Part shown: positions 40,486 to 61,101 of the stretch, piece after piece
How the letters are laid out: every line of letters begins with the position of its first letter
How positions within the stretch are numbered: position 1 is the first letter of the stretch
NCBI RefSeq assembly: GCF_030296915.1
Contig: NZ_AP028031.1
Location: forward strand, 697,001 to 761,000
Reading direction: 5' to 3'
From: Anaerostipes hadrus ATCC 29173 = JCM 17467
GTDB lineage: Bacteria > Bacillota > Clostridia > Lachnospirales > Lachnospiraceae
DNA length: 64,000 bases
The notes under the pieces: model-generated
The model's database searches: none
What the model saw: only the letters and a program-made list of their open reading frames with translations
What the model was told of the DNA's origin: nothing
Program-made: the position numbers and the translations under genes

Positions 40486-40504
40486 AGTAAAAGGATGAAC
40501 AGAT

Positions 40505-42841: not shown

Positions 42842-42845
42842 TATA

Positions 42846-44672: not shown

Positions 44673-44705
44673 CTGTTATGACAGAGAGGAAATGAGCAGA
44701 AAAGT

Positions 44706-46187
44706 ATGAAAGTTTGTATTGTGGCAGAGGGCTGTTACCCATATGTGGTCGGAGGTGTTTCCGGCTGGATCAACAGTCTGATCAGATCTTTTCCGAATGT
44801 AGAATTTATATTGCTGGCAATTGTGGCGAACAGATCCTTCAGGGGGAAATTTGTCTATGAGCTGCCGGAAAACCTTACACAGGTTTATGAAGTATATCTG
44901 GATGACTGTGAATGGGAAAGCGGAAACAGAAAAAGAAAATCTTTAAGGCAAGTCAATCTCTCTCATAAAGAATATGACGAAATGCTGAATATGGTGCTGA
45001 ACCGGAGGACAGACTGGGGTGTGATTTTTGACCTGTTTCACAGAAAGCATCTTTCTGTAGATGATTTTCTTATGGGGGAGGATTTCTTCAGGATTGCCAG
45101 GGAGTGCTATGACCGTAATTATTCAAATATTAATTTCTCGGATTTCCTCTGGACGCTGCGATCCATTTATCTGCCGATGTTCTGGGCACTGAGAATGGAT
45201 GTACCGAAGGCGGATTTGTATCATTGTGTGGCCACCGGTTATTCTGGAATTCTTGGAAGTATGGCAAAACATTTTCATGGAAGTTCATTACTGATCTCCG
45301 AGCATGGGATTTATACCAGAGAAAGGGAGGAAGAACTGATCAAAGCTTCCTGGGTAAGGGGAGTATATAAGAATATCTGGATTGAACAGTTTAAGAAGAT
45401 GTCACTTCTTGCATATGAAAAGGCAGATATGGTAACCTGTCTGTATGAACATGCAAAGGACCTGCAGATAGAATTGGGATGTCCGCCTGAGAAGATCAGG
45501 GTGACACCAAATGGGATCAATACACAGACGCTTGCAGATCTTCCCGGCAAGACAGAAGAAGAGAAGCAGTTTATCAATGCCGGGGCTGTACTTCGTGTAA
45601 CTCCTATCAAAGATGTTAAAACCATGATACAGGCATTTGCTTTTGCCAAAAAAAAAGTAAAAAATATGAAGCTCTGGATTATGGGACCGGCAGATGAAGA
45701 TAAAAAATATGCAAAAGAATGTTATGATCTGGTAGAATCCCTTGGGGTTCAGGATGTGGAATTCACAGGAAGGGTTAATGTAAAGGATTATCTGGGCAAG
45801 ATGGATTTCACACTGCTTACCAGTATCAGTGAAGGACAGCCTTTGACAATCCTTGAGAGTTATGCGGCTCACAAACCTGTAATTGCCACAGATGTGGGAA
45901 ATTGCAGGGAACTGATCTATGGAAATAATGACGGATTTGGGGAAGCGGGAATCCTCACACACATTATGAATATAGAAGAGATCGCCCATGCAATGGTTAC
46001 CATGTCTGTAAATGAGAAAGACAGAAGGCGTATGGGAGAAGCAGGATACAGACGTGTAAATGCACTTTACAGGATTGATCAGATGAAGGAAGTATACAGA
46101 GAAATATACAAAGGATTTTCAGATAGACAGAATCTTTCGTGGACAGAGGAACCCTTTCAGATCAGTGTGTATGAAAAGATGATCTAA
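44706..46187 (+). CDS. pelF: GT4 glycosyltransferase PelF
   Basis: 493 residues. The PelF-specific N-terminus VCIVAEGCYPYVVGGVSGW is followed by a long insertion and then LLISEHGIYTREREEEL. The donor part is IRVTPNGIN and TSISEGQPLTILESYAAHKPVIATDVG with the EX7E glutamates. PelF polymerises the Pel chain from UDP-GalNAc/GlcNAc in the cytoplasm in systems studied. It is the most diagnostic gene of the locus. PelG follows after 70 bases. Confidence 0.93.
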   Translation: MKVCIVAEGCYPYVVGGVSGWINSLIRSFPNVEFILLAIVANRSFRGKFVYELPENLTQVYEVYLDDCEWESGNRKRKSLRQVNLSHKEYDEMLNMVLNRRTDWGVIFDLFHRKHLSVDDFLMGEDFFRIARECYDRNYSNINFSDFLWTLRSIYLPMFWALRMDVPKADLYHCVATGYSGILGSMAKHFHGSSLLISEHGIYTREREEELIKASWVRGVYKNIWIEQFKKMSLLAYEKADMVTCLYEHAKDLQIELGCPPEKIRVTPNGINTQTLADLPGKTEEEKQFINAGAVLRVTPIKDVKTMIQAFAFAKKKVKNMKLWIMGPADEDKKYAKECYDLVESLGVQDVEFTGRVNVKDYLGKMDFTLLTSISEGQPLTILESYAAHKPVIATDVGNCRELIYGNNDGFGEAGILTHIMNIEEIAHAMVTMSVNEKDRRRMGEAGYRRVNALYRIDQMKEVYREIYKGFSDRQNLSWTEEPFQISVYEKMI

Positions 46188-46257
46188 ATGAAAGCATAAT
46201 GTGACTGAGATCGGGATAACAAACATAAGATAAGCAATTACGGGATGGAGGGGACAT

Positions 46258-47700
46258 ATGGCAGGAATAGGTGTAAAACTTACAAATATCTATAAAAAGA
46301 ATACGCTGACTACTGATATCATAGGTGCGGGATACAGTATGGTCGTTACAATCGCCCCCATGCTGCTGGTGATCGGTGCGCTTATGATCATGGAGTATTT
46401 TCTGGATTTCTCTTCAGTAGGTTATGTTACAAGAGAACTGTTTTCCTGTACGGTTCTGTATATATTTATTTTTTCCTTGCTTACGGCGTCTCCATTTAAC
46501 TCTGTATTATCCAAATATATGTCAGATGTGATCTATGAAGAGACATATGAAGATATTTTGCCGTGCTATTATGTGGGCATGCTTTTGAATATTTCACTGA
46601 GTGCTCTTGTGGGAATTCCATTCTGTATCCGGGAGTATCTGGTTGGAAAAGTGGGCATTATTTATGTTTTTACAGGTTATTGCGGATACATTGCCCTGGT
46701 TCTTGTGTTCTATTCTATGTTGTACCTGTCTATCTGTAAGGATTACAAAAAAATATCATTCTTCTTTGCCGTTGGTATGACAGTGACAGTGTTTTTATCT
46801 TTTCTGCTTGTAAAAGTATTTCATTGGGGTATTACATATGGAATGCTGTTTTCGCTGACAATTGGATTTTGGCTGATCGCCTGTCTGGAAATGTCGGTAG
46901 TCCGGAGTTATTTTAAGGAAAACAGTGGAAAATACAGACAGGTTCTGGTCTATTTTAAGGAATATTGGCCGTTGGTGGTTACAAATTTTCTTTACACTTT
47001 AGGACTTTATGTACACAATTTTGTTTTCTGGACAACAGATCTTCACATGATAGTAGTAAAATCTTTTGTATGTGTGACAACATATGATATGGCAACCTGT
47101 CTTGCAATGTTTACAAATATCTCTGCAAGTGTTATCTTTATCAGTAGAGTTGAGATGTATTTTCATGGCAGATATAAAGCATACTCAGAAGCCGTTATCG
47201 GTGGAAGAGGAGCTGATATTGATATTACAAAGAAGGGGATGTTCCGTGCTCTTTCCGAAGAGCTTATGAGTCTTGCCAGAGTGCAGTTTATTATTACGCT
47301 GGTGATCTTTCTGATCTGTATGATTTTTCTTCCGCAGCTTGGTTTTGGAGGAATGACAATGAGGATATATCCCTGTCTGGCGTCAGGATATTTTATCTTG
47401 TTTCTGATGTATGCGGAGATTATTTTCATGTATTATTTTAATGACATGAAGGGTTGCGTATTGACGGGACTGGTGTTTTGCCTTATCACACTGGTGGGAA
47501 GTATAATATCTTCTCATTTTACAGAGATATGGTATGGGGCGGGGCTTGTTGTCGGGAGCTTTGCCGGATGGACAGTGGCTTATGGAAGACTTCGGTGGAT
47601 GGAGAAACATCTGGATGTCCATATATTTTGTAACGGTCATCTGCTGAAGAAGAAAAAAGGTGATTGTCCGTCACCAAAAGTATTTGACAGATATGAATAG
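46258..47700 (+). CDS. pelG: Pel polysaccharide transporter PelG (MOP superfamily)
   Basis: 480 residues, twelve membrane helices. The start MAGIGVKLTNIYKKNTLTTD and SPFNSVLSKYMSDVIYEE are typical of PelG. It moves the nascent Pel chain across the membrane together with PelD and PelE. A strong GGATGGAGGGG site precedes it. Normal length. Confidence 0.93.
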   Translation: MAGIGVKLTNIYKKNTLTTDIIGAGYSMVVTIAPMLLVIGALMIMEYFLDFSSVGYVTRELFSCTVLYIFIFSLLTASPFNSVLSKYMSDVIYEETYEDILPCYYVGMLLNISLSALVGIPFCIREYLVGKVGIIYVFTGYCGYIALVLVFYSMLYLSICKDYKKISFFFAVGMTVTVFLSFLLVKVFHWGITYGMLFSLTIGFWLIACLEMSVVRSYFKENSGKYRQVLVYFKEYWPLVVTNFLYTLGLYVHNFVFWTTDLHMIVVKSFVCVTTYDMATCLAMFTNISASVIFISRVEMYFHGRYKAYSEAVIGGRGADIDITKKGMFRALSEELMSLARVQFIITLVIFLICMIFLPQLGFGGMTMRIYPCLASGYFILFLMYAEIIFMYYFNDMKGCVLTGLVFCLITLVGSIISSHFTEIWYGAGLVVGSFAGWTVAYGRLRWMEKHLDVHIFCNGHLLKKKKGDCPSPKVFDRYE

Positions 47701-48099: not shown

Positions 48100-49299
48100 A
48101 TGAAAAGAGTACTGTTTGTAATTAATACTCTTGGAGGTGCAGGTGCAGAGAAGGCATTACTGGAACTGCTCAAAAGATTTACCCCGGACCGGTATGAGGT
48201 GGATCTGTACGTGCTTCTGGAACAGGGAGAACTGATCAGTCAGGTGCCGGGTTATGTAAATATTCTGAACAGGGACTATACGGCAGAATCAGTTCTTTCA
48301 GCAGAGGGAAAGAAAGAATTGAACAGAAAGGTTCTCAGACGATTATTTATACACAGGGCATTATTGAAAAATATACCATATCTTATAAAAAATACGTTTT
48401 CCATGCTTGGCAGAAAAAAAATATATCCGGACAAGTTTTTATGGCGTATCATGTCAGACAGTGGTATGAAACTGAATAAAAGCTATGATATGGCAGTTGC
48501 TTATCTGGAAGGTGGGGCTACATATTTTGTCCATGATCATGTTAAGGCCAGGAAGAAGTTCACATTCCTGCATGTTGATTATAAATATGCCGGCTACAGC
48601 AGAGGACTGGACAGGGACTGTTACCTGGACTTTGACAGGATCTTTACAGTATCAGGGGAAGTAAAGAGTGTATTTGACAGTGTATATCCGGAATGCCGGA
48701 ATAAAACCTTTATTTTCCATAATCTGATCGACAGAGAGGAAATATACAGAAAATCAGAACTTCCCGGTGGATTCAGTGATACATACACCGGAAAGCGTAT
48801 ACTGACAGTGGGAAGGCTGACTGCACAGAAAGCGTATGAAGTAGCTGTTGATGCGATGAAGCTCCTGAAGGATCAGGGGATAAAAGCGCGCTGGTATGTT
48901 CTGGGCGAGGGAGAATTACGAAATAAGCTTCAGCAGAAAATAGACAGTCTTGGACTGAAGGAAGATTTTCTGTTACTGGGTGCGAAGGAGAATCCTTATC
49001 CATATTATAAGCAATGTGATCTGTATGTGCATGCGACCCGGTTTGAGGGGAAAAGTATTGCAATACAGGAAGCTCAGGTTCTGGGCTGTACGATTCTGGT
49101 ATCTGATTGCAGCGGAAACCGGGAACAGGTGAAGAATGGGACGGATGGTATACTGTGTCAGCTTTCACCGGAGGATATCAGCAGGAAGATAGCTGAACTG
49201 CTGGGAAATGAAGAGAAATGCAGAGAATATGGAAAAAAAGCTACAGTCCGGATATCCGATGAACAGGGAGATATCCTGAAACTGTTTGAGATAGTATAA
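48100..49299 (+). CDS. Glycosyltransferase family 4 (CapM/TagE-like)
   Basis: 399 residues, GT-B fold. LFVINTLGGAGAEKALLELLKRF at the N-terminus shows the G-G-A-E pattern of GT4 enzymes. The donor half reads ILTVGRLTAQKAYEVAVDA, then ATRFEGKSIAIQEAQVLG with the EX7E glutamates. Cytoplasmic; adds a sugar to a polymer or teichoic-like chain. Four bases after DUF2304, so one operon. Confidence 0.88.
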   Translation: MKRVLFVINTLGGAGAEKALLELLKRFTPDRYEVDLYVLLEQGELISQVPGYVNILNRDYTAESVLSAEGKKELNRKVLRRLFIHRALLKNIPYLIKNTFSMLGRKKIYPDKFLWRIMSDSGMKLNKSYDMAVAYLEGGATYFVHDHVKARKKFTFLHVDYKYAGYSRGLDRDCYLDFDRIFTVSGEVKSVFDSVYPECRNKTFIFHNLIDREEIYRKSELPGGFSDTYTGKRILTVGRLTAQKAYEVAVDAMKLLKDQGIKARWYVLGEGELRNKLQQKIDSLGLKEDFLLLGAKENPYPYYKQCDLYVHATRFEGKSIAIQEAQVLGCTILVSDCSGNREQVKNGTDGILCQLSPEDISRKIAELLGNEEKCREYGKKATVRISDEQGDILKLFEIV

Positions 49300-49317
49300 G
49301 AAGAGAGAGAGGCATCT

Positions 49318-50127
49318 ATGGATAACAGAGAGAACGTCAGAAAAGAATCAAAAAAAGCAGTTTTAATTATTATTCCGGCATATAATGAGGAAAAAAACAT
49401 TGTACCGCTTCTGGAAAAACTGGAACAGCCGGAGATTACACAGTTTGCAGATGTACTGGTCGTGAATGATGCGTCTCAGGATGAGACAAATCATGTGACT
49501 AAAAAGAGAAACCATACGGTGATTACCAATGTATTTAATCTGGGTTATGGGAGTGGTCTGCAGCTTGGTTATAAATATGCGGTGCGTAAAGGATACAGCT
49601 ATGTTATACAAATGGATGCAGACGGTCAGCATGACGTATGTAACCTTCTGGAAATCTATAAGGAATTGCAGAAAGAGGATGAGAATGGGAAATTGCCGGA
49701 TATTGTCCTTGGTTCAAGATTTATGGAAGGAAGTTCTGAATATACGGTCTCATGGGCAAAGAAAATTGCATTTGTATGGTTTCGTGCAATTCTGAAACTT
49801 GGAACAGGGAAAAAAATAACAGATCCGACTACAGGTCTTCAGGGACTGAACTGGAAAACTTTTCTTTTTTATTCAAAATATAATAATTTTGATGACAAAT
49901 ATCCAGATGCAAATATGCTTATGCAGATGTTGCTGCTTGGATTCAGAGTCAGAGAGATTCCGGCAGTGATGCATGTCAGAACTGCCGGTGTCAGTATGCA
50001 TTCCGGCCTTAAACCGATCGTCTATATGTTCAGGATGACTGTTTCTATTCTGACTGTGTGGATCAGGGAAAAGATTCTTAAGATGGATGAGGATAAAATA
50101 CGTGAACTGGAAAAATATAATGAATAA
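49318..50127 (+). CDS. Glycosyltransferase family 2 (polyprenyl-phosphate sugar synthase type)
   Basis: 269 residues. GT-A signature: LIIIPAYNEEKNIVPLLEKL, VVNDASQDET, then MDADGQHD as the DxD metal site. Family of dolichyl-phosphate mannose synthases and their bacterial relatives, which load a sugar onto undecaprenyl phosphate. It forms a natural pair with the DUF2304 protein, and could supply the GT-C-like enzyme at 40505. No C-terminal membrane helices. Overlaps the next gene by 8 bases. Confidence 0.9.
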   Translation: MDNRENVRKESKKAVLIIIPAYNEEKNIVPLLEKLEQPEITQFADVLVVNDASQDETNHVTKKRNHTVITNVFNLGYGSGLQLGYKYAVRKGYSYVIQMDADGQHDVCNLLEIYKELQKEDENGKLPDIVLGSRFMEGSSEYTVSWAKKIAFVWFRAILKLGTGKKITDPTTGLQGLNWKTFLFYSKYNNFDDKYPDANMLMQMLLLGFRVREIPAVMHVRTAGVSMHSGLKPIVYMFRMTVSILTVWIREKILKMDEDKIRELEKYNE

Positions 50128-51433
50128 AAACAACTGGGTATTCCAACAGGTGGAACTCATCGAGAGTAATGTCTGCCTGGAAAATCCAGGCAGAGGATGG
50201 TATGGAATCTATACGTTTGTTGTTCAGGATTCCATAAATCCAGAAGAACTGAGATGGAGTCTGAGAGATGGAGAACTTCTTGCACTGGTATTGCTGGATA
50301 TCAGTATATATCGCAGTATGCAACTGGATGAGAATGCCCTGAATAATATCAGAAGCATTCTCAGTTTTTTTATGTATTACAAAAAAGATGTGATTCTGCG
50401 GCCGGTTTATGATCGGGAAGGAAAAGGGCGTGAATGTGAGCCGGATAGTTTTGAACAGGTGCTGGAGCATTTACAGCAGATTGGTGGTTTGCTCCGGGAT
50501 ATGCAACATTCGGTATTCATCTTCCAGGGGATGCTTGTCGGAAGCTGGGGAGAAATGCATGATTCCAGATATCTGTCACCAGAGTGTATCAATCGAATGT
50601 GGAACTGTATGCGGCAGTATTTGGGAGATGAGATATATCTTGCTGTACGTACTCCGGCGCAGTGGAGAACTTTGAGAAGTGAAAAAGAATTCAGACAAAA
50701 GAAATATGCGCATCTGGCATTATTTGATGATGGGATTCTGGGTTCCATGACTCATCTGGGAACCTTTGGAACTGAACTCAGGGAGGCGGCAGGCTGGGCA
50801 CAGGCGTGGACAAGAAAAGAGGAAATGGAATTTGTTAATTGTCTTACGGAAGATATGCCATGTGGTGGAGAAGTAGTAGCCTGTACTGAGAACGACAGAA
50901 TGTATGAGGCAAAGTTCATAGTCAACGAGTTAAAAAAGATGCATATTACTTATTTGGACAGTACTCATGATATGAAAGCACTGGATTTATGGAAAAGTAT
51001 ATCGTGGGATGGATTTGATAATTTGAAAATATGGAAGGGATACAGCCTCTATGAGTATATAGGAGAACACCTGGGATATCGGCTTGTAGTGCGAACTGTG
51101 GAGTTGAAACCGATTCGAAGAGGAAGAGCAGAATTTATGTTTGAAATTGAGAATACCGGGTTTGGAAGGGTATTTCAGGAAACAGAATTGTTTCTGATAA
51201 TGAAAAACAGGAATGAGACCAGAGAAGTTCCGATATCCATGGATATGAGAAAAATCCAGGCAGGAACCAGGATATGTGGAAAAACAGTGATTAAATTAAT
51301 GGAGGGCAGAGTATCCTTGAAACTTCAGAGAAAAAAAGATGGACGGATCATTCATTTTGCAAATAAAAACAGTACAGACACCCTTTACCTGGGAAGTCTG
51401 CACTGTGGAAAAATTTATCTTAGTGAAGAATAA
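50120..51433 (+). CDS. DUF4832 domain protein (TIM-barrel glycosidase-like), cytoplasmic form
   Basis: 437 residues from ATG 50120, overlapping the previous stop. ENPGRGWYGIYTF is the DUF4832/DUF4874 start motif. GMLVGSWGEMHDSRY holds a possible catalytic acid (WGEMH), followed by LAVRTPAQWR and LALFDDGILGSMTHLGTF. The C-terminal 90 residues are a beta-sandwich. It has no signal peptide, in contrast to the paralogue on the opposite strand (51420-52862) with the same motif order. The two genes converge and overlap by 14 bases. Possibly cuts or binds the locus polysaccharide. Confidence 0.82.
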   Translation: MNKNNWVFQQVELIESNVCLENPGRGWYGIYTFVVQDSINPEELRWSLRDGELLALVLLDISIYRSMQLDENALNNIRSILSFFMYYKKDVILRPVYDREGKGRECEPDSFEQVLEHLQQIGGLLRDMQHSVFIFQGMLVGSWGEMHDSRYLSPECINRMWNCMRQYLGDEIYLAVRTPAQWRTLRSEKEFRQKKYAHLALFDDGILGSMTHLGTFGTELREAAGWAQAWTRKEEMEFVNCLTEDMPCGGEVVACTENDRMYEAKFIVNELKKMHITYLDSTHDMKALDLWKSISWDGFDNLKIWKGYSLYEYIGEHLGYRLVVRTVELKPIRRGRAEFMFEIENTGFGRVFQETELFLIMKNRNETREVPISMDMRKIQAGTRICGKTVIKLMEGRVSLKLQRKKDGRIIHFANKNSTDTLYLGSLHCGKIYLSEE

Positions 51434-52862
51434 GAGTACCTACAGGAACTGTCTTGCTGTTTTCTGCCCCCTGATTGGCAAAGTGGATAGAATTTTCTGT
51501 GTATGGATCTTCCATACGCAGTGAAATGGAGTAAGTTCCTTTTCTCAGGGAACGGATATCCAGATCTGTTTTAAATGTGGAGCAGTCATTGCCTGCTATG
51601 GTACGGTTGTCAATATTTGTTTCTATTTTCTTTGATTTTCCGGTACTTTCATCAGTGAGGAACAGAACAGTATCGAATCTGGTATATGCGGAAGAAAATC
51701 CTGTGTTTGCAATTGTTATATAAAGAGAGGCTGTGTCACTCAGGTCGGAGTGAAAATCAACAGAGGATTCTTTCATAACATACCGATAACCAAGGTGTGT
51801 ACTTATATAATCGTACCCTGTACATCCGGAAAAAACGTCTGTCCGTGATCCTGTATAAGTGGAATTCTTCCATTTATCCAGAACTGCGGTATCGTGTTCG
51901 GAATTCAGGTAAGATATATGCATCTGTGAAAGGTCGGCAATCGCATTGTTCAGATCGTTATATTCATTATCAACTGTAACCTCACCCCCATTAGGAACAT
52001 ATTGGCAGAGTTTGTACTGGAAAAGAAGTTCCTCACTTCGTGTGCCTTGCTCATCCAGATTACTGTCCGACTGTAAAGGGGTATCATCGTAAGTACCCAG
52101 ATCATAAACAGAACCAAGCATGCCGTCATTAAAAAGACTGAGTCTTGCCTGCAGGCTGCCATTGCCGGCATCTGTACTGGACAGGGGCGTTCTGGTGCGG
52201 AGTATGCCACGCAGCTGACCAGGAGTGCGGACTGCCAGAAAAATATCAGAGGAAATATTCTGATCAAGTGCTTCTATAATCTGTCTTATCTGATTAATAT
52301 CTCCGTAATTGGAATGATTCATTTCTCCAGTATTTCCTGTCAGAGTACCCTGAAGAATATAAACACAGTCTGCATATTTGTTGACAGTAGAAGAAATCTG
52401 GGAAATATGATTCTTTATCTGAGGCAGGTCAGATGGTTCCGTGGACAGAGCCTGTCCATCCCAGTCATACAGAAAACGGAGGATAACTTGTTTTTTTGCC
52501 CGAACACATTCTTCCAGTATTTTATCCAACTGATTTTTGGCATTTGTGCTTATGCTGGTATTGGAGTAATTTTTCAGATTAATCTCCAGAAGCATCAGAG
52601 GATATGGATTGGAAGCGCAACTTTTTCTGCACCAGTCAGCAGATTTCTCCGGCTTCTGCTTATCTGAAAGAATGTATCCGCTCAACTGATAGAAACCACG
52701 ATATGGGTTGTCCAGTTCACGGGAGGATTCTTCTGTCATTGCAGGAGTGTATTTTACATTTAGCCGTCTGATGGAGATTATGTGGTAGAGACATAATACA
52801 GCCAGCACCGAGCAGATAACAAAAAAAAGACTGTGCAGGATGATTGATGATTTTTTTTTCAT
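51420..52862 (-). CDS. DUF4832 domain protein, membrane-anchored paralogue
   Basis: 480 residues from ATG 52862 (AAGGAG nine bases upstream); the longer open frame before it lacks a site. One N-terminal membrane helix (residues 6-25), so the enzyme part faces outward. DELDNPYRGFYQ-type start, QGTLTGNTGEMNHSNYGD with the acidic residue, LAVRTPGQLR, ARLSLFNDGMLGSVYDLGTY, and a beta-sandwich tail. The motif order matches the protein encoded convergently at 50120. I infer an outer-face partner of the cytoplasmic form. Transcribed against the rest of the operon. Confidence 0.82.
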   Translation of the reverse strand: MKKKSSIILHSLFFVICSVLAVLCLYHIISIRRLNVKYTPAMTEESSRELDNPYRGFYQLSGYILSDKQKPEKSADWCRKSCASNPYPLMLLEINLKNYSNTSISTNAKNQLDKILEECVRAKKQVILRFLYDWDGQALSTEPSDLPQIKNHISQISSTVNKYADCVYILQGTLTGNTGEMNHSNYGDINQIRQIIEALDQNISSDIFLAVRTPGQLRGILRTRTPLSSTDAGNGSLQARLSLFNDGMLGSVYDLGTYDDTPLQSDSNLDEQGTRSEELLFQYKLCQYVPNGGEVTVDNEYNDLNNAIADLSQMHISYLNSEHDTAVLDKWKNSTYTGSRTDVFSGCTGYDYISTHLGYRYVMKESSVDFHSDLSDTASLYITIANTGFSSAYTRFDTVLFLTDESTGKSKKIETNIDNRTIAGNDCSTFKTDLDIRSLRKGTYSISLRMEDPYTENSIHFANQGAENSKTVPVGTLILH

Positions 52863-52954
52863 GAATATTTGCTCCTTATACTTGAAAATATCTATACATA
52901 TAACTATGAATTGACTATAATGTATTATAACCAAAAAGAAAGGATAAGTGAAGA

Positions 52955-54499
52955 GTGAAACAGAAATCAAGGACAGAATATTCTGTTATGAATACGACGG
53001 TAGCTTTTTTGGCACAGACATTGGCAATTTTTATGGGTTTTTTTACAAGAGTTGTTTTTACCAGGACTCTCAGTGAAGGTTATGTAGGAATTAATGGTTT
53101 GTTTACAGATATATTAAATATATTGTCTTTGTCAGAACTTGGGGTCGGAACAGCAATCACATATGCTCTTTACGCTCCTATAGCCAGAAGAGATATAAAA
53201 AAACAACAGATCCTGATGCGGATGTTTCGGAATTTCTACAGGATAACAGCGGGCTTTGTTGTGCTTGCCGGCTTATGCCTGATACCATTTTTGGATATTT
53301 TGATGAAGGATCGTCCAGATGTGAATCATCTGATTATAATTTATCTTCTGTATCTGCTTAATTCCGTTGTTTCGTATTTATTGATTTATAAAAAAACACT
53401 GGTAGATGCCCATCAGATGAATTATATTACGGTGATGTATCATAATGGTTTTCTTGTACTACAAGATATCCTTCAGATTATAGTATTGTTTTTGACACGA
53501 AACTTTATCCTGTTTCTTGTTATTGCGGTTGTATGTACCATAATCGGAAATATCTGTATGTCCCGAAAGGCAGACAGGCTGTTCCCATATCTGAAAGAAC
53601 CGTGTAAGGAGCAGCTTCCACAGGAAGAACGTCATGATATTTTAAGGAATGTAAAGGCAATGCTGATGCATAAAATTGGTAATGTAGTAGTAAATAATAC
53701 AGATAATCTGCTGATCTCAAGTTTTGTGGGAATTATCAGTGCAGGGATTTATTCCAATTATTATCTGATCATAGGATCAGTCAGGCAGGTTCTGGAGCAG
53801 GCAATGCTGGGAGTTGCGGCAAGTGTGGGAAATCTTGGTGTGACGGAAGAGAACGAAAAGATAGGACGGATTTTTGACAGTCTGTTTTTTATAGGGTACT
53901 GGCTGTTTGGTTTTGCAGGTGTCTGTTTGCTGGAACTGCTGAATCCTTTTGTGAAGCTGGCATTTGGTAAAAAATATTTATTTCCAAAGGAAATTGTTTT
54001 GATACTGTGTATTAATTTTTTTATTAATGGGATGAGACGTGCAGTGCTGATTTTTAAGGAATCTATGGGACTGTTCTGGAATGATCGATACAAAGCGATA
54101 GCTGAAGCAGTGTTAAATCTGGTAATTTCCATTCTGTTGGTTACACATTTTGGTGTGGCAGGAGTATTTGCAGGTACATTCTGCAGTACAGTACTTACTT
54201 CTGTATGGGTAGAACCCTATGTGATTTATAAATACAGACTGAAAAAGCCTGTTACCGGCTTCTTTGTAAAATATGCAGGATATCTGGGGGTGATGGCTGC
54301 AGTATGGGGAATAACGGAATATTTTTGCAGATTTATTTCCGGACAGGCATTTATGATTCTGGTATGCAGACTGGGAATCTGCCTGATTGTGCCGAATATT
54401 TTATTGTGGTTTGCCTACAGGAGAACTGCAGAGTGGAAAGTATTATGGAATTTACTGAAAAAAATTGTAGAAAAAGTTTTTATAGGAGATAAAAGATGA
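52955..54499 (+). CDS. Polysaccharide flippase (MOP superfamily, Wzx-like)
   Basis: 514 residues with fourteen membrane helices. GTG start at 52955 with AAAGGA about 10 bases upstream; an ATG at 52989 is possible. ARRDIKKQQILMRMFRNFYR, NNTDNLLISSFVGI and GMRRAVLIFKESMG are typical of Firmicute polysaccharide and sugar-lipid flippases. It is the second MOP exporter of this block besides PelG, so a second lipid-linked glycan is probably made here. Overlaps the next gene by 4 bases. Confidence 0.87.
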   Translation: MKQKSRTEYSVMNTTVAFLAQTLAIFMGFFTRVVFTRTLSEGYVGINGLFTDILNILSLSELGVGTAITYALYAPIARRDIKKQQILMRMFRNFYRITAGFVVLAGLCLIPFLDILMKDRPDVNHLIIIYLLYLLNSVVSYLLIYKKTLVDAHQMNYITVMYHNGFLVLQDILQIIVLFLTRNFILFLVIAVVCTIIGNICMSRKADRLFPYLKEPCKEQLPQEERHDILRNVKAMLMHKIGNVVVNNTDNLLISSFVGIISAGIYSNYYLIIGSVRQVLEQAMLGVAASVGNLGVTEENEKIGRIFDSLFFIGYWLFGFAGVCLLELLNPFVKLAFGKKYLFPKEIVLILCINFFINGMRRAVLIFKESMGLFWNDRYKAIAEAVLNLVISILLVTHFGVAGVFAGTFCSTVLTSVWVEPYVIYKYRLKKPVTGFFVKYAGYLGVMAAVWGITEYFCRFISGQAFMILVCRLGICLIVPNILLWFAYRRTAEWKVLWNLLKKIVEKVFIGDKR

Positions 54500-55587
54500 C
54501 AGCTTTGGAAAAACAGCAGAAAAAGATTTCTGTGATCATACCTGTATACAATGCAGAAAAGTACATCAGAGAAACTCTGGACAGTATTATAAAGCAGAGT
54601 TATAAAAATCTTGAAATTATATTGATAGATAATGGATCAAAGGACAGAAGTCCTGATATTATACAGAAATATGAAGCAAAATACCCGGAGATCCATATGA
54701 TTGAAGGATCGGGAAAGGGTCCAGGAGCTTCAAGAAACAGAGGGCTGAAGCTTGCGAAGGGTGACTACATTGTGTTTGCCGATGCAGATGATTATCTTCC
54801 TGATAAGGAGATATTCTGTAAATATATAAATCTTGCAGAGCAGACAGATGCGGATATTGTTGTCAGCAATTATGCAAGATTGTGGAAAGATAAAATATTG
54901 CCGGCTACTAAACATCAATCATTTGCATTATGTAGTCCATCATCTGAAGAATTCAGATTTCAGGGATTTTTCTCAGTAGGAACACTTTCTTATGCGTGGG
55001 GGAAATTATACAGAAGAGAGTTCCTGAGAAATCATCAGATTTATTTTGCGGATCTTTCTTATGCAGAAGATAAACTGTTTAATATGCAATGTTATATCTG
55101 TGATGCGAAGTATGCATTTCTGGAAGATATAGGGTATATTTACAGAAAAAATGATATGTCAGTTTCCTGGCAGTATCGTCCGGATTCTGTAGAAAACTGG
55201 TTCAAACTTGTATATGAACTGAAAAGCTGGATAGAGAAAAAAGACAAGGATCCGAAAGAATATACTTCATTGATTGGATATTTGCTTATTTTTGCGGCAT
55301 TTTTTGACGGAAAAATGGAATATATGCAGCATAAAAAATCTCTGTGGGCTGTCAGAAAGGTTCTTAAGAAATATGGAAGCAATCCGATGGGGAGAAAGGC
55401 TTTTACAGAGTTGGCAGACAGAAGGAAAAAACTGCAGATCACGCAAAAATTGTGGAAGATTATGATCCGGACATTTTCGTTGGGAATGAAATGGAGGTGG
55501 TATCTGTTGATGTCTGTGGGAATAAAGATCTTGGTTTCCTGCCGGGTAGATGAAAGACTTTCTGATACTGGAATAAGGAAAAAGTAA
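54496..55587 (+). CDS. Glycosyltransferase family 2
   Basis: 363 residues. VSVIIPVYN-like start (ISVIIPVYNAEKYIRETLDS), LIDNGSKDRS, GPGASRNRGLKLAKGDYIVFADADDYL with the DxD pair. The SYAEDKLFNMQ block is the usual acceptor/base motif ED. Cytoplasmic; adds one sugar to the unit flipped by the neighbour protein. Last gene of the plus-strand locus, followed by a terminator 3 bases after the stop. Confidence 0.9.
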   Translation: MTALEKQQKKISVIIPVYNAEKYIRETLDSIIKQSYKNLEIILIDNGSKDRSPDIIQKYEAKYPEIHMIEGSGKGPGASRNRGLKLAKGDYIVFADADDYLPDKEIFCKYINLAEQTDADIVVSNYARLWKDKILPATKHQSFALCSPSSEEFRFQGFFSVGTLSYAWGKLYRREFLRNHQIYFADLSYAEDKLFNMQCYICDAKYAFLEDIGYIYRKNDMSVSWQYRPDSVENWFKLVYELKSWIEKKDKDPKEYTSLIGYLLIFAAFFDGKMEYMQHKKSLWAVRKVLKKYGSNPMGRKAFTELADRRKKLQITQKLWKIMIRTFSLGMKWRWYLLMSVGIKILVSCRVDERLSDTGIRKK

Positions 55588-55622
55588 AGACAGTGGCTCC
55601 TGGTCAGGAGTCACTGTTTTCA
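55588..55622. terminator. Bidirectional terminator at end of the Pel-like block
   Basis: ACAGTGGCTCCTG and CAGGAGTCACTGT (55590-55616) form a nearly perfect stem with a 1-2 base loop, then TTTT. It lies between two convergent genes and overlaps the last codons of the minus-strand one. Confidence 0.75.
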
Positions 55623-56797
55623 AAAATATGGATTAATTTTGTCTTCTGATTGATTTTCTTAAAGCTGTGAAGGGTCTGGTGGAATGTTGTATTTCGTACT
55701 GTGTAGGTGTTGCGGATAAAACAGATAAATGTGATACACCAGAGTGCAGGCCAGAGGACTGGATAATGGCTGGCTTTTGGAAAGCGGACCTTCATCTGGA
55801 TGTGCCCTTCTTTGAAATAAGTAAGGAAGTTAACCTTCTGATACGAACCGCTTCCAACTAGTGACTGGGAAATATCGGTTCCCATATCGCCGTCTTTAAG
55901 AATCTGTATTATGAAATCATGGCAGTCGTGTGGATTGTACTGTGTCCGGGCGTCTATAGAATCCGGAAGACCCAGATATTTCCTGCAGCATTCCAGAATA
56001 ATTTCGTACAGATGGCTGATGCGGGATTCTCTGCACCATTCATGAATCTGCCGGAAATTGATTTCTTTTTCATGACGCTTCAGATAAAAGGTAAAATCAC
56101 AGAGAAGGCGGATACCGAATCCGCTGTACAGATAATGCTTCAGCATATGATGAAGCATATAGAAAGTATATTCTGTAGGCGGCAGGACTGTGTAAGTATA
56201 TCCGTGGATTGTCTGTGTGGATGCTTTCAGACATTCCGGTGAGAAGACAGAATCCACAAGTTTGTTGGCGGGGCTGTACTGGTACTGGCCAACTACACGA
56301 TAGTGAAGCTCCAGGAGAAAACGGCGCCCGGTTTTGGGAAATATATAACGGTAGGTTACATGGTGGTCACTGAGTTCATCTTCAGAGATATATCCGTTGC
56401 TTTCAAGAATTGCCTGTGCTCTGGCGAGGTCAGAAGGATCAGCCAGATATAGGTCAAGATCTCCAAGCTTACGATATTCAGGAACCGGATAGCAGTCAGC
56501 CAGACTCAGACCCTTCAGAAGATAACAGTCAATATTGTTCTTTCTTAAAAGAGAGACGGTAAGCCGGGTGAAATGCTCAATCTGATAATAATTCAGCATC
56601 ATGCCTTTTACCTGTTGCTTCATGGCAGGATAGACAGAAGCAGACCGGAGATATGGCAGTACAAATGGGACAGTACAATGTTCCTGTGCCAGCTTTGCCA
56701 GAGCAGGAAGGTCTTCCGGATGTACGGAAACAGAATGATCAGAACCGGTGCAGATATTTTTTATTATTTTCAGATAAGTATTGTATATTCGTTCCAT
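55604..56797 (-). CDS. Nucleotidyltransferase family protein (NTP_transf_5 type)
   Basis: 397 residues from ATG 56797 (AGGAG six bases upstream). Motif LLKGLSLADCYPVPEYRKLGDLDLYL: the GDLDL aspartates are the metal ligands of a Pol-beta-type fold. Then HVTYRYIFPKTGRRFLLELHYRV with a third acidic site, and a helical C-terminal half (LHHMLKHYLYSGFGIRLLCDF). Such proteins occur with PqqD, HPr-kinase-like and ABC genes in peptide-modification loci and may nucleotidylate a peptide or be a specificity factor. Part of the same minus-strand group as the peptidase at 57031. Confidence 0.82.
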   Translation of the reverse strand: MERIYNTYLKIIKNICTGSDHSVSVHPEDLPALAKLAQEHCTVPFVLPYLRSASVYPAMKQQVKGMMLNYYQIEHFTRLTVSLLRKNNIDCYLLKGLSLADCYPVPEYRKLGDLDLYLADPSDLARAQAILESNGYISEDELSDHHVTYRYIFPKTGRRFLLELHYRVVGQYQYSPANKLVDSVFSPECLKASTQTIHGYTYTVLPPTEYTFYMLHHMLKHYLYSGFGIRLLCDFTFYLKRHEKEINFRQIHEWCRESRISHLYEIILECCRKYLGLPDSIDARTQYNPHDCHDFIIQILKDGDMGTDISQSLVGSGSYQKVNFLTYFKEGHIQMKVRFPKASHYPVLWPALWCITFICFIRNTYTVRNTTFHQTLHSFKKINQKTKLIHIFENSDS

Positions 56798-56918
56798 AGG
56801 AGTCTCCTGAAAGTGCGTAAAATGGGTACCGTTCAGAGATTGAATGGCAGTAATAAATAATAGTAAGTATATCATGTTATTGCGTGGAAATAAAGGAAAA
56901 GGAAGAGAAAAAGGGAAA

Positions 56919-57053
56919 ATGAAAAAGACAGAAGGTTATATAGTCAGGAGACTGGAGGATGAATATCTCTTACTTCCGTCAGGAAGAAGAACAGAAGAAG
57001 TCAATGAATTCTCCTATGAAAAATGGATGATCATGAGTGATGAAGCTTTCTGA
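56919..57053 (+). pseudogene. PqqD-like fragment
   Basis: 44 codons starting KKTEGYIVRRLEDEYLLLPSG, which is the first half of a PqqD-type peptide-binding domain (family length about 90). The expected N-E-T-G-A-x-I-W segment and third helix are missing; the frame runs into the end of the peptidase gene. An AAGGAAGAGAAAAAGGG stretch precedes the ATG, so a short peptide could be made. I read it as a truncated recognition domain. Confidence 0.5.
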
Positions 57054-57486
57054 GAAATGCTGACAGTTTAAAACAGAAGGGGCGAACAGGCAGCATAAAA
57101 AGCCACAGGGAAGAAACAAATTTGTAGAAAGGATTTCCTACAGTAAATTCTCTGCTGTTACGATTTACAGCAATCAGTTTTCCGATAATCTGATCCTGAC
57201 GCAGAGGACCTTCCACTTCGTATTGGTTGTCGCCTACCATATAAAAGCCGTCAGATGTTATCCGGCAGATGCGGTGAAGCACAAGGATGCCCTGATCACG
57301 CCTGTAGAGGACTACATCATTCCTGTGGCAGTCTGTGTAGTCTGTCTGCTGGATCAGTGCTTCATCCCGTTCGGGAATAAAGAGAGGGTACATGCTGTAA
57401 CCCTGAGGCTTGATGCGAATAATATTTCCCTCCCGGAGAAGCTGCTCCAGATCGATTTTAACTGGGTCTGATTTTGTGGTATTCAT
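57031..57486 (-). CDS. S24/S26 family signal-peptidase-like protein (Ser-His, Sec11-like)
   Basis: 151 residues. KPQGYSMYPLF gives the nucleophile Ser31 in the SxMxP box. VVLYRRDQGILVLHRI has His71 where bacterial SPase I has Lys, so the dyad is of the archaeal/ER Sec11 type. DGFYMVGDNQYEVEG supplies the conserved GDN (Asp86). One C-terminal membrane helix (about 117-138). No N-terminal anchor. It probably cleaves the exported product of this locus; the small secreted-type protein at 57718 has an AASG site after its leader. Divergent from that gene. Confidence 0.85.
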   Translation of the reverse strand: MNTTKSDPVKIDLEQLLREGNIIRIKPQGYSMYPLFIPERDEALIQQTDYTDCHRNDVVLYRRDQGILVLHRICRITSDGFYMVGDNQYEVEGPLRQDQIIGKLIAVNRNSREFTVGNPFYKFVSSLWLFMLPVRPFCFKLSAFLRKLHHS

Positions 57487-57717
57487 AGTATTTGTCCTTA
57501 TTCCTGTTATAAAAATAGCTGATGTTCAGAAATAAAGTTCTGAACAGGCGTATTATAACATTAAGAAAACAAAAGGACAACAGAAAGTGTTTTCCAGTTG
57601 TAATAAAAAACTGTATGTTTTGCGTAAGCATACTTGACTTTCTGAGGGGATATGGATAAGATAAAGAAAAAGATAAAACCAATGTAAAGGTCATATTTCA
57701 GGAAAGGATGATTAATT

Positions 57718-58101
57718 ATGAAAACATATAAGAAGCCGGTAGTAACTGTTGACGCAGGAATGGCAGAGGGTGTTTATGCAGCAAGTGGTGCAAGCCAGGG
57801 AACATTAAATGTAACATATCATGGAGTATGGGACAAATGGGGAACTAATGGTGGCAAGGGTCTGGCAACGGCAGACTGGTCAGGTATTAATGGAACAATT
57901 ACTTTAAATATCACTTTTAATGATACATTAGATCAGGTTGAGACAGATGATGCTTCTGTAAAGAAATCCTGGTCAGGTAAGACTGCAACACTGACATTTG
58001 CAAGTACAGCATCAAATCCGCTGACTATTGGAGTGCATATAAATCATGGAACAAGTATTGATGATCTTAAGATGACAGGATTTACTTATTCTGTGAACTA
58101 A
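57718..58101 (+). CDS. Precursor-like small protein with conserved leader and GVYAASG site
   Basis: 127 residues, AGGAAAGGA before ATG. Residues 1-24 form a leader: MKTYKKPVVTVDAGMAEG, then VYAASGA. This is not a Sec signal (no hydrophobic core), but ends in an A-A-S-G cleavage-like site. Residues 26-127 are rich in Thr, Gly, Asn and alternating strands (GTLNVTYHGVWDKW, GTITLNITFND, ATLTFASTASNPLTIGVHI), without Cys or Lys-rich core, like an extracellular beta-sandwich. It stands between the peptidase and ABC genes but on the opposite strand. I infer the substrate of this export set. The family is unnamed to me. Confidence 0.75.
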   Translation: MKTYKKPVVTVDAGMAEGVYAASGASQGTLNVTYHGVWDKWGTNGGKGLATADWSGINGTITLNITFNDTLDQVETDDASVKKSWSGKTATLTFASTASNPLTIGVHINHGTSIDDLKMTGFTYSVN

Positions 58102-58127
58102 AGAGAATATCTGGCTGACAGGAAAAG

Positions 58128-58156
58128 GGATTGAGTTAGAGTGTTTAACTCAATCC
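58128..58156. terminator. Hairpin between convergent precursor-like and ABC genes
   Basis: GGATTGAGTTA at 58128-58138 and TAACTCAATCC at 58146-58156 are perfectly complementary with a 7-base loop. No long T run; it may serve both strands. Confidence 0.6.
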
Positions 58157-58168
58157 ATGAAATTAATT

Positions 58169-59938
58169 TTAAAATGTCTGTATCATTTCATGAATTTCCA
58201 CGTCATTTAGTATCTCACATTTCTTATCCCGTATTGCATAAACCCTGTTACAGATATTCAGAACTGTAGGTCTGTGTGTGGTTACAATACAGGTTCTGGG
58301 ATAGGTATCCTGCATGATATTTCGCAGGACTTTTCGCTCAGTAGCTACATCCAGTGCGGAAGTAGCCTCATCCAGCAGCAGGATCGGTGATCTGCGCAGT
58401 AATGCTCTGGCAATGGAGAGCCTCTGTGCCTGACCTTCGGAGAAACCGCCGCCCCGTTCCTTAACGATGTTTTCAATTCCATCCGGGAGTTTTTCCACAA
58501 AATCCCATGCGCAGGCAAGTTTCAGCGCTTCAATAATTTCTTCATCTGTAGCATCCTGTTTCACATTTCGCATATTTTCTGCAATTGTTCCTGAAAACAT
58601 TGTATTTCCCTGTGGTACATAGGAGAATAATTTCCTTGTAGAAGGGGACATATCAATCATGTGTTCATGATCTGCTCCGGCACATATATGAGAAGAACCC
58701 TCCTGCGGTGTCAGAAGAGACAGGATCAGGCGCAGCATAGTTGTCTTACCTTCACCGGAAGGTCCTACCAGAGCCACGATCTCATGAGGATAAGCCTCTA
58801 TGGAAGCATTGGCGAAAACAGCAGTACCATTATGATAGGTATAACTGAGATCCTGCATGTTCAGACCGATTCCTTCTGACTTATGCTGCTTTTCGAAGTT
58901 GCCTACAGCAGAATCCTGACTGTAGTCCTCTTGCGGCATTTCCACGATATCCATCAGTCTTCCTGCCGAAATAGTCAGTGAGATGGCTGACGGAATCAGA
59001 CTTACCAGAGAATTTACCGAACTTGTCAATGTACCGGACAAAGACAGAAACATGGTCATAGTTCCGTAACTGATTGCATTGCTCCATACACGGTAAATTC
59101 CCCATCCATAACAGCTGTAGGATACGATAAATCCGATAATGGACATGAGAACAGAAGTCAGAATGGACATCTTCTGGAAGTCCAGTCTCATGTTAATATA
59201 ATCTTTCTGAAGAGATTTCAGTTTCTCTGTATAAAAGTGAATCAGGTCGAAAGCCTTGATCGTCTGGATATTGGAGAAAGCTTCCTGGTTAAATCCATAA
59301 AGCTTTGCATTCATAGCTGCACTTCTCTGATTGTTATCACGCATTCGTTTCAGCAGCGGCTTTGAAAGCAGAGCACTGAAGGGAATTCCAAGCAGAGCAA
59401 AAAGTGCGAAAGTAGGGTCATAATAAAGCACGATTGCCAGTGCACTGATAAAACGAAAAGTATAAATGATCAGGTTGGGAATCCAGTTCAGGATTCCGCT
59501 TGAAATATTGGAGGCATCGGAACTCCAGCGTGTCACCAGATCTCCGGTGTGGTAATCGGTCAGGGATTCCCAGTCAGTTACCAGCATTTTGGCAAAGATG
59601 TCGTTCTTGATTTCGGAGTCCACCTTCAGGTTAATGAAAGTAGAGGCATATCCGGATGCCTGCGAAACCAGAATGTTTGCGACAGAGAAGCCGATCATTG
59701 CGACAAAGGTACTTATAAGTTTCCCGGTCTGGTGTCCGGTAATAATATCTACCAGATCTTTGGAAATCAGACTGGAAACCAGAGAGACACCTGTTCCGAC
59801 CAGACCAAGCAGTGTATACAGGATCATGGCTTTCCAGTAACGTCTGCCGTACTGATAGATCCATAATGTCTGTTTCCACATTTTTTTCAGGGTTCCCTGT
59901 TTCAGGTGCTTCCAGATCAGGAGTATTTTTTCTTTCAT
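58169..59938 (-). CDS. ABC transporter, fused permease and ATPase (peptide exporter type)
   Basis: 589 residues. Residues about 35-330 hold six membrane helices (exporter type I). Residues about 360-589 are the ATPase: Walker A GPSGEGKTT, signature FSEGQAQR, Walker B ILLLDEATSALD, switch His in TTHR. No C39 peptidase domain is attached, so leader removal must come from elsewhere, most likely the S24/S26 peptidase encoded at 57031. The start overlaps the PqqD/HPr-kinase-like gene by 4 bases, so the two are co-translated. Likely exports the 57718 product. Confidence 0.9.
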   Translation of the reverse strand: MKEKILLIWKHLKQGTLKKMWKQTLWIYQYGRRYWKAMILYTLLGLVGTGVSLVSSLISKDLVDIITGHQTGKLISTFVAMIGFSVANILVSQASGYASTFINLKVDSEIKNDIFAKMLVTDWESLTDYHTGDLVTRWSSDASNISSGILNWIPNLIIYTFRFISALAIVLYYDPTFALFALLGIPFSALLSKPLLKRMRDNNQRSAAMNAKLYGFNQEAFSNIQTIKAFDLIHFYTEKLKSLQKDYINMRLDFQKMSILTSVLMSIIGFIVSYSCYGWGIYRVWSNAISYGTMTMFLSLSGTLTSSVNSLVSLIPSAISLTISAGRLMDIVEMPQEDYSQDSAVGNFEKQHKSEGIGLNMQDLSYTYHNGTAVFANASIEAYPHEIVALVGPSGEGKTTMLRLILSLLTPQEGSSHICAGADHEHMIDMSPSTRKLFSYVPQGNTMFSGTIAENMRNVKQDATDEEIIEALKLACAWDFVEKLPDGIENIVKERGGGFSEGQAQRLSIARALLRRSPILLLDEATSALDVATERKVLRNIMQDTYPRTCIVTTHRPTVLNICNRVYAIRDKKCEILNDVEIHEMIQTF

Positions 59939-61101
59939 TGCAGCTCCTCCAGTTGATCAATGGTATTTTTCATCATGCAGGCGGCAGAAGAATTCTTTGT
60001 ACAGAGAAGATGCAGTACCGGCACGCGGTCAGCGATTTCCCCGGCAAAGAAAAGATTTTCTGAAAGCTGGCGTTCAGTCCATGCAGGGGAGATCATGCGC
60101 TGCATGACACGGAGGATTTTTTCCGAAGGATTTAACTCTTCCAGATAATCTGTCTGCAGATCACGCCCAAGGAGGATAATTCCTCCGAGTTCATATGCTT
60201 CAGCAGTAAAAATCCCGGAAGTTCCGCACCAGGGGATGCCATAGGCGATGATATGATCTTTATGCAATCCGAGAAGATTCAGGTCTCCATTTAAGTACGG
60301 TGTGTCAAAAAGCTCATGCCACAGAGCAGTGTGTGTGGATTTTCCCATTCCGGAATGACCGGAAAACAGCCATGCTTTTCCCTGATAGAGAACAGAAGCT
60401 GAGTGGATTGCAAACAGTCCGTTTCTTTGTGCTGTGAAAAGGAAAAACAGCCGTATGGCGTGAAATAAATTTTCTATATTTGTTTCGGAAACCTGTGGGT
60501 GGCAGTAAACCCGTACATAAGTACCATCTTTCAGCATATGAGCTTCGTAAAGGTTCTGCATCTGTGGAAAAAGGACAACATAACGGTTGGGATTTTCAAA
60601 AACAGTCATTTCAGAATTCTGCAGAAGAACCTGTCCGTAACAACGGCTGGGCGGAGGCGTGGTGACCAGTTCGATTTCCTGTGAGGTATCATCATCCGAA
60701 AATTCATGATAAAAAGGTTTGAAATTTGGGGAAATCAGTTCTGCAGAACCGTATAGTTTTATGCAGATTCCTGCGATTATCATAGAGACAGAAGGGATTG
60801 ATGAAATCAGGTGGAGATCTTCTGTGATCATTCCCATGGCTGTAAGCTGTGTCAGAAAATCTGTCACATCTTTCAGAAGTTCAGGATAATAAGACTCATC
60901 CAGTTGATAAGTCCTGGCAAGTATTTCTGCCAGTTGCTGCGGTTCGGCACCTTCATGATGCTGAAGTACATTCCACAGGAAAGTACTGGTCTCATTCAGC
61001 ACAAAGCCTTTTTTCAGATCGGCAATCTGCTGACCATAAGGTAAGAGATAATTGATACCTTTGATTTTTCGAAGTGTATATCCGGGCTGACATTTGAACA
61101 T
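59935..61101 (-). CDS. PqqD-like plus HPr-kinase-like fusion protein
   Basis: 388 residues from ATG 61101 (AAAGGAA about 11 bases upstream; the longer open frame has no site). Residues 1-90: PqqD-like winged domain (GYTLRKIKGINYLLPYG, NETSTFLWNVLQ). Residues about 120-388: HPr-kinase/phosphorylase-like P-loop domain with GHSGMGKSTHTALWHELF (Walker A) and NGDLNLLGL. In lasso-peptide and related RiPP loci such kinases phosphorylate the precursor; the PqqD part would bind the leader. First gene of the minus-strand group. A direct PqqD-kinase fusion is a useful hint that the precursor is handed straight to the kinase. Confidence 0.85.
   Translation of the reverse strand: MFKCQPGYTLRKIKGINYLLPYGQQIADLKKGFVLNETSTFLWNVLQHHEGAEPQQLAEILARTYQLDESYYPELLKDVTDFLTQLTAMGMITEDLHLISSIPSVSMIIAGICIKLYGSAELISPNFKPFYHEFSDDDTSQEIELVTTPPPSRCYGQVLLQNSEMTVFENPNRYVVLFPQMQNLYEAHMLKDGTYVRVYCHPQVSETNIENLFHAIRLFFLFTAQRNGLFAIHSASVLYQGKAWLFSGHSGMGKSTHTALWHELFDTPYLNGDLNLLGLHKDHIIAYGIPWCGTSGIFTAEAYELGGIILLGRDLQTDYLEELNPSEKILRVMQRMISPAWTERQLSENLFFAGEIADRVPVLHLLCTKNSSAACMMKNTIDQLEELQ

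Follow-up and report, generated by a model that had tools for sequence, protein, structure and literature searches.

A predicted LPP-like pathway for leader-guided protein modification and export beside a Pel exopolysaccharide locus in Anaerostipes hadrus and other Lachnospiraceae

Positions 55604-61101 of the stretch analyzed here (the window: 64,000 nucleotides, positions 697001-761000 of contig NZ_AP028031.1, assembly GCF_030296915.1) from the 2.80 Mb genome of Anaerostipes hadrus ATCC 29173 = JCM 17467 hold a set of genes around a small leader-bearing protein. An original prediction, made by a model from the letters alone, had recognized there a nucleotidyltransferase, a Ser-His peptidase (Ser31/His71), a leader-bearing 127-residue protein, an ATP-binding cassette (ABC) exporter that lacks a peptidase of its own, and a fusion of PqqD with an HPr-kinase-like (HprK-like) domain, all of which were confirmed by profile scans and alignments. 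The locus had been called unnamed; in its gene set it corresponds to the linear polyphosphorylated peptide (LPP) family, described as the lppAKBSDN pathway of Paenibacillus alginolyticus (Popov et al., Nat Commun 2026, May; PMC13381572).

The precursor open reading frame (57718-58101, + strand, 127 residues) starts with the 24-residue leader MKTYKKPVVTVDAGMAEGVYAASG (57718-57789, +), which carries a YxxPxV motif of the type bound by the RRE (RiPP recognition element; RiPP, ribosomally synthesized and post-translationally modified peptide) and closes with an invariant Ser23-Gly24 pair. Behind it, a cargo domain designated type A runs through the stop codon (57790-58101, +) and is predicted to be a beta-sandwich. 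The PqqD (RRE)-HprK-like kinase fusion lies at 59935-61101 (-) and matches PF05402 (PqqD) with 33.8 bits, above the cut-off. Its kinase part is weakly HprK-like in the window protein (TIGR04352, E 0.0036); HprK_rel_B is matched by 17 of the 27 members of the fusion alignment (best E 4.8e-6), and the Walker-A residues Gly251, Gly253 and Lys254 together with His233 and Asp273 are invariant in 18/18 proteins of one alignment and 27/27 of another. Furthermore, the profile of the 27 fusions matches the RRE structures of lasso and LPP systems (TbiB1 5v1u, PbaB1 9x90 and LppB 9x8z, E 6e-4 to 7e-3), and the nearly invariant Asp78 aligns with the residue that we take, from its spacing, to be Asp70 of LppB, described as the residue that holds the leader Tyr (PMC13381572).

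The candidate leader peptidase, a S24/S26 signal-peptidase-I-like protein resembling SipW and LppS (57031-57486, -), was assigned from profile matches that are all below cut-off (Peptidase_S24, E 0.0021; archaeal signal peptidase I TIGR02228, E 1.8e-7; SipW model, E 5.6e-4) and from its invariant Ser and His: Ser31, His71, Asp86 and Glu92 are kept in all 16 aligned proteins. No solved structural relative of this protein was found at E<=1. The MsbA-type exporter (58169-59938, -) consists of PF00664 (ABC_membrane) and PF00005 (ABC_tran), and its best NCBIfam match is MsbA_rel (E 3.5e-69, below the cut-off of that model). It does not qualify as a PCAT double-glycine exporter, no C39 peptidase being present among its 20 Pfam matches. 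A defence system was considered and rejected, PADLOC matching the ABC protein only, through seven ATPase-type models. The last gene encodes an NTP_transf_5 family protein (55604-56875, -; PF14907, 129.1 bits against a cut-off of 31.2), for which a role like that of LppN or PsmN is proposed; its GDxD motif (Gly138, Asp139, Asp141) is invariant in 13/13 aligned proteins, and it is predicted to decorate the phosphorylated precursor. No Rfam match reached gathering scores in the window.

The PqqD fragment that had also been noticed (56919-57053, +) proved to be a truncated remnant, 44 codons long, of a discrete PqqD/RRE gene: its first 30 residues are 80% identical to a protein of Blautia luti (L011), where, as in Anaerobutyricum hallii DSM 3353 (L012) and L051, the gene is intact, encoding 87 residues in the first two; a PqqD-like stretch is also seen in L050. 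By itself, the discrete RRE gave no significant match among solved structures. Because this separate gene is truncated in the window, binding of the leader would fall to the RRE of the kinase fusion, unless one of two further PqqD proteins of the genome (L001, L003) assists. At L001:1459-2165 (near 799390), a PqqD and a S26-peptidase gene form a pair with no recognised precursor, between genes labelled by reading as a TrkH-like transporter and leuCD. Elsewhere in the same genome, L108:8388-10495 (near 2171000) holds a second NTP_transf_5-like and HprK-like pair, about 23% identical to the locus proteins; the locus peptidase and the discrete RRE have no match beside these two genes.

Analysis of the leader indicates that it is the conserved unit of the system. 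In 30 compiled leaders, which include close relatives of the window, Tyr4, Pro7, Glu17, Ser23 and Gly24 are invariant (30/30), position 20 holds Tyr or Phe, 29/30 have Ala, Gly or Ser at position 22, position 21 is variable and the last place of YxxPxV is occupied by Val, Ile or Leu, giving the pattern YxxPxV...EGVYAASG. Ser23-Gly24 is present in 240/240 homologs among the matches listed. A Sec signal peptide was rejected, as a hydrophobic core is lacking in the 30 leaders (Kyte-Doolittle means over 10 residues: highest 1.66, median 0.79). Outside the family, the leader was sought in 391 class genomes, some of them of the same family, and the sole match in another family was partial and contained a stop. 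The string EGVYAASG was unmatched in the open-licence PMC papers searched, and among the papers listed there none on this variant was seen besides PMC13381572. A 32-residue leader remnant occurs at L013:10001-10099 (Ruminococcus faecis record), with no cassette within the stretch examined, and further leader proteins lie away from the cassette in a few genomes (G029 C51, G022 C55, G034 C75:1892).

The distribution of the cassette was examined in 299 Lachnospiraceae genomes, roughly one per genus. The 24-position leader model matched 19/299 at E<=0.01, of which 17 fell below 1e-5. At this last threshold, set after seeing the data (weaker matches in G047 and G265 being dropped), and with ABC orthologs counted at >=53% identity, also set after seeing the data, the leader and the ABC ortholog are each found in 17/299 genomes and occur together in 16 (Fisher 2.2e-24). 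The ABC count leaves out G067 (620 bits, 48%), whose inclusion makes the overlap 16/18, and keeps G012, with 607 bits over part of the protein at 64% and a tblastn match of 66% over 8-589. The two discordant genomes are G146 (68% complete), where leaders were found without the ABC gene, and G096, where the ABC gene is accompanied by a leader-like protein (AEGIYAGSG, without YxxP) spotted by eye. The latter is included in the table of adjacency and excluded from the Fisher test and from the 30 leaders, which likewise exclude the second precursor remnant of L011.

That table was drawn up for the window and 15 sampled genomes, with multi-precursor loci measured to the nearest precursor, the seventeenth genome, G240, being split over contigs; the distance between the ABC gene and the nearest leader or leader-like gene is 67-208 bp in all 16 loci. 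The original prediction had named two observations that would refute it. A leader spread widely without its neighbours was not encountered, since 16/17 leader genomes hold the ABC ortholog; as for ABC and peptidase genes travelling with a different small gene, the adjacency held in 16/16 loci for this leader, other small genes not having been searched systematically. The partners are present to various extents in the 17 cassette genomes: the fusion in 17 (in G135 distant, at 32% identity), then the peptidase (14) and the NTP transferase (11); 10 genomes have all four proteins. Gene order is identical in A. hallii DSM 3353 (proteins 97-99% identical, precursor 88%; gap between ABC and precursor genes 67 bp) and in B. 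luti (proteins 74-92%, precursor 87%; gap of 503 bp to the intact precursor, with a decayed copy between). In the Coprococcus catus record (L010), the precursor, ABC and fusion genes are common to the window within the stretch examined. Related cassettes in L104 (G067) and L105 (G007) encode ABC proteins 47-48% identical, with discrete RRE and S26 genes, L104 having HprK-like and NTP-transferase matches as well; a search of the related cassettes L104-L107 and L059-L063 for precursors with a YxxP motif gave one plausible candidate, in L063.

While the leader is constant, the cargo is not, and this amends the view of the 127-residue protein as the constant precursor: by sequence, it is the leader that is conserved, and type A is one of several cargo types. 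The 127-residue protein reaches the cut-off of no family in Pfam or NCBIfam and has 2135 homologs at E<=0.001; over its full length it was matched in 6/250 family genomes, some through the leader alone, and in 1/11 genomes of its own genus. The same leader precedes type A, type B (CYT..IHQ..GR.DYRIQV), type D (DCWTV..Q), type C, which is Cys-rich (GCLGCPA..DNGKRKPSWE), type E, Cys-rich as well and short, and singletons; six loci (L044, L047, L051, L053, L057, L094) have two precursors each. Types B and D are similar by eye. Profile comparison of type A with type B gives an alignment confined to residues 1-26; since the type A profile is shallow (Neff 1.1), the two domains may yet be distantly related. 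Two cargo types are modelled as beta-sandwiches, and the type B model is close in fold to the CBM2 sugar-binding modules. Neither the window cargo nor P0268 matched a CBM profile of Pfam at E<=1, and the five solved relatives proposed for cargo A by sequence were set aside as non-significant (best E 0.019, an adhesion exoprotein). In B. luti, a decayed second precursor stands beside the type-A gene (L011:10572-10760), the leader end being joined directly to the last part of a type-B cargo. In G146 (L096:9768-10145, L097:10060-10452), the domains that stand behind the same leader match ubiquitin families weakly (E 0.0023 and 1.3e-4, below cut-off).

The precursor dN/dS is 0.05-0.08 in five cross-genus pairs from three genera, with dS above 1, and this low ratio argues for a real, functional and conserved protein. 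Between the window and A. hallii DSM 3353, dN is 0.059 for the precursor (dN/dS 0.51) and 0.002-0.015 for its neighbours.

Beside the cassette, the window contains a Gram-positive Pel exopolysaccharide locus (37403-47700, +) made of an epimerase-domain protein, two open reading frames without Pfam match, a DUF2194 protein, a PelF-like protein (DUF3492 and GT1) and PelG (PF16933, E 1.2e-148). It is followed by polysaccharide genes (48100-55587) that recur at relatives: glycosyltransferases, of which the one at 49318-50127 was labelled by reading and not by Pfam scan, two DUF4874/DUF4832 proteins and a flippase. The two DUF4874/DUF4832 paralogs (50087-51433, +, and 51420-52970, -) are convergent and overlapping, and are paired in several relatives too. 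PelG is present in 16/17 cassette genomes and lies 6-29 kb away in 14/14 same-contig cases. By tblastn, homologs of the Pel genes or of their companions from 48100-52970 were found in 13/20 other stretches with an ABC ortholog, among which L047 counts by DUF4832 alone and L051 by a 28% epimerase match alone. The described Gram-positive cluster pelDEADAFG likewise has PelF, PelG, an epimerase-domain protein and DUF4832 neighbours, but no leader-guided export cassette as it is described (PMC7112168). Indeed, this flanking Pel locus, the leader common to several cargo types, the tight adjacency of ABC and leader genes and the intact separate PqqD gene of relatives all lie beyond the original prediction.

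LPP genes, as described, encode a signal peptidase I, a discrete RRE, an HprK kinase, an NTP (nucleoside triphosphate) transferase and an MsbA-like transporter; precursors have 35-200 residues, so that a length of 127, once held to be far too long for a RiPP, is no objection to a RiPP-type route (PMC13381572). The LPP leader YxxPxVLxHQxIxFETxxS is cut after Thr-1 and phosphates are found on Ser3; cutting requires the RRE and is inefficient without the kinase, and the loci sit in polysaccharide clusters, the final product and its role not being known in that account (PMC13381572). The window locus shares with LPP a SipW-like peptidase (profiles below cut-off), an RRE, an HprK-like kinase (weak match), an NTP transferase, an MsbA-like exporter and the lack of a cyclase in the locus, together with a YxxPxV leader, variable C-terminal parts, a polysaccharide-locus setting and a Ser just past the cut. 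In contrast, the RRE is fused here to the kinase, the discrete one being confined to few relatives and broken in the window; EGVYAASG replaces HQxIxFETxxS, whose HQxIxFET consensus was found in 0 of the 30 leaders; and a cargo predicted to be folded is kept across genera in Lachnospiraceae hosts with Pel loci. The Tyr-Ser spacing is 19 in these leaders and 18 in the LPP consensus. The main text of PMC13381572 does not contain the words Lachnospir, Clostridi, Blautia, Pel, CBM and folded. Given the missing intact discrete RRE and FETxxS pattern, the locus is, on its sequence, an LPP-like variant of the published pathway with a matching gene set and not an LPP member.

Taking together the shared leader, the differing cargo, the cassette linkage, the conserved active-site residues and the Pel linkage, we favour, with a probability of roughly 0.6, an LPP-like pathway of leader-guided modification and export that serves the Pel exopolysaccharide matrix. 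The identity of the cassette and the logic of its leader are well supported, and the cassette probably recognizes a short leader and then phosphorylates small, interchangeable proteins, which it exports and trims. YxxPxV would be held by the RRE of the kinase fusion, and by the separate RRE where its gene is intact; the fused kinase would then phosphorylate the invariant Ser23, just past the cut, a modification that we consider likely. The NTP_transf_5 protein would add a sugar or a nucleotide onto this phosphate, much as PsmN is reported to attach one or two hexoses to the phosphoserine in pseudomycoidin, either itself or via a host glycosyltransferase (PMC9266682). The S26 peptidase would cut and the exporter move the protein out. 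The LPP pattern Phe-3, Glu-2, Thr-1 would place the cut at Ala22|Ser23 and make Ser23 the new N-terminus; this analogy suggests that Ser23 becomes core position 1 (position 3 in LPP) and favours a mature form starting at Ser23 over the Gly24 start that had been offered beside it. These four steps are carried over in kind from the LPP and pseudomycoidin work. Finally, the freed, putatively CBM2-like beta-sandwich, modified at its N-terminus, would act outside the cell on the neighbouring Pel-type polymer. Ser23 as the target, the sugar, the role in the matrix and the exact place of the cut are our inferences. The analysis supports the dedicated modifying, exporting and trimming route first proposed for a beta-sandwich protein.

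A plainer reading is that the ABC exporter and the peptidase simply export a small beta protein, Ser23-Gly24 being kept for cleavage only while the kinase and the NTP transferase act elsewhere, e.g. on the polysaccharide or its lipid carrier. The weak HprK match of the window protein, the polysaccharide genes nearby and the NTP transferase not being found in 6/17 cassette genomes are in keeping with it; we nevertheless judge it unlikely, as the kinase is fused to the RRE expected to hold this very leader and as the LPP kinase modifies the Ser directly past the cut (PMC13381572). Alternatively, the cassette may produce a secreted bacteriocin-like or signalling RiPP, with the cargo as variable effector parts and the Pel linkage as a shared neighbourhood of surface genes. 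The turnover of cargo types (several types, loci with two precursors, the decayed L011 copy) and the greater divergence of the precursor than of its neighbours between two near strains would fit, but the strong purifying selection on type A across genera and the strong linkage to PelG make this doubtful. A lasso peptide locus deprived of its cyclase, with the long precursor as a decayed relic, appears very improbable. The kinase, NTP transferase, RRE and ABC genes are indeed common to paeninodin-type lasso loci, and the HprK-like kinase with an annotated nucleotidyltransferase to paeninodin and pseudomycoidin types (PMC13381572; PMC9266682). However, no cyclase or B2 peptidase is seen here, the modified Ser of those lasso peptides is C-terminal (PMC9266682), and the cargo is conserved and predicted to be folded; the lasso B2 family (PF13471) is absent from the genome (0/1), and Pfam scans of 18 proteins from the locus and its flank showed no cyclase, relatives not having been searched for cyclases.

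Within the favoured LPP-like pathway, a bolder and tentative idea, which we hold to be rather improbable, is that the N-terminal Ser, phosphorylated and glycosylated, is the point of a covalent link: a phosphodiester, made by the NTP transferase or by a partner, would join the exported domain to the Pel-type polymer. If true, a RiPP pathway would be a general system that anchors folded proteins of exchangeable types (beta-sandwich, Cys-rich, perhaps ubiquitin-like) in the biofilm matrix. More broadly, the LPP-like reading would take a RiPP pathway beyond short peptides, to secreted domains that are folded and interchangeable, and the 24-residue address tag might be used to send chosen folded proteins from Lachnospiraceae by a non-Sec route. 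The host group consists of butyrate-forming gut bacteria, and their Pel matrix may offer a concrete place to look for the role of the LPP family.
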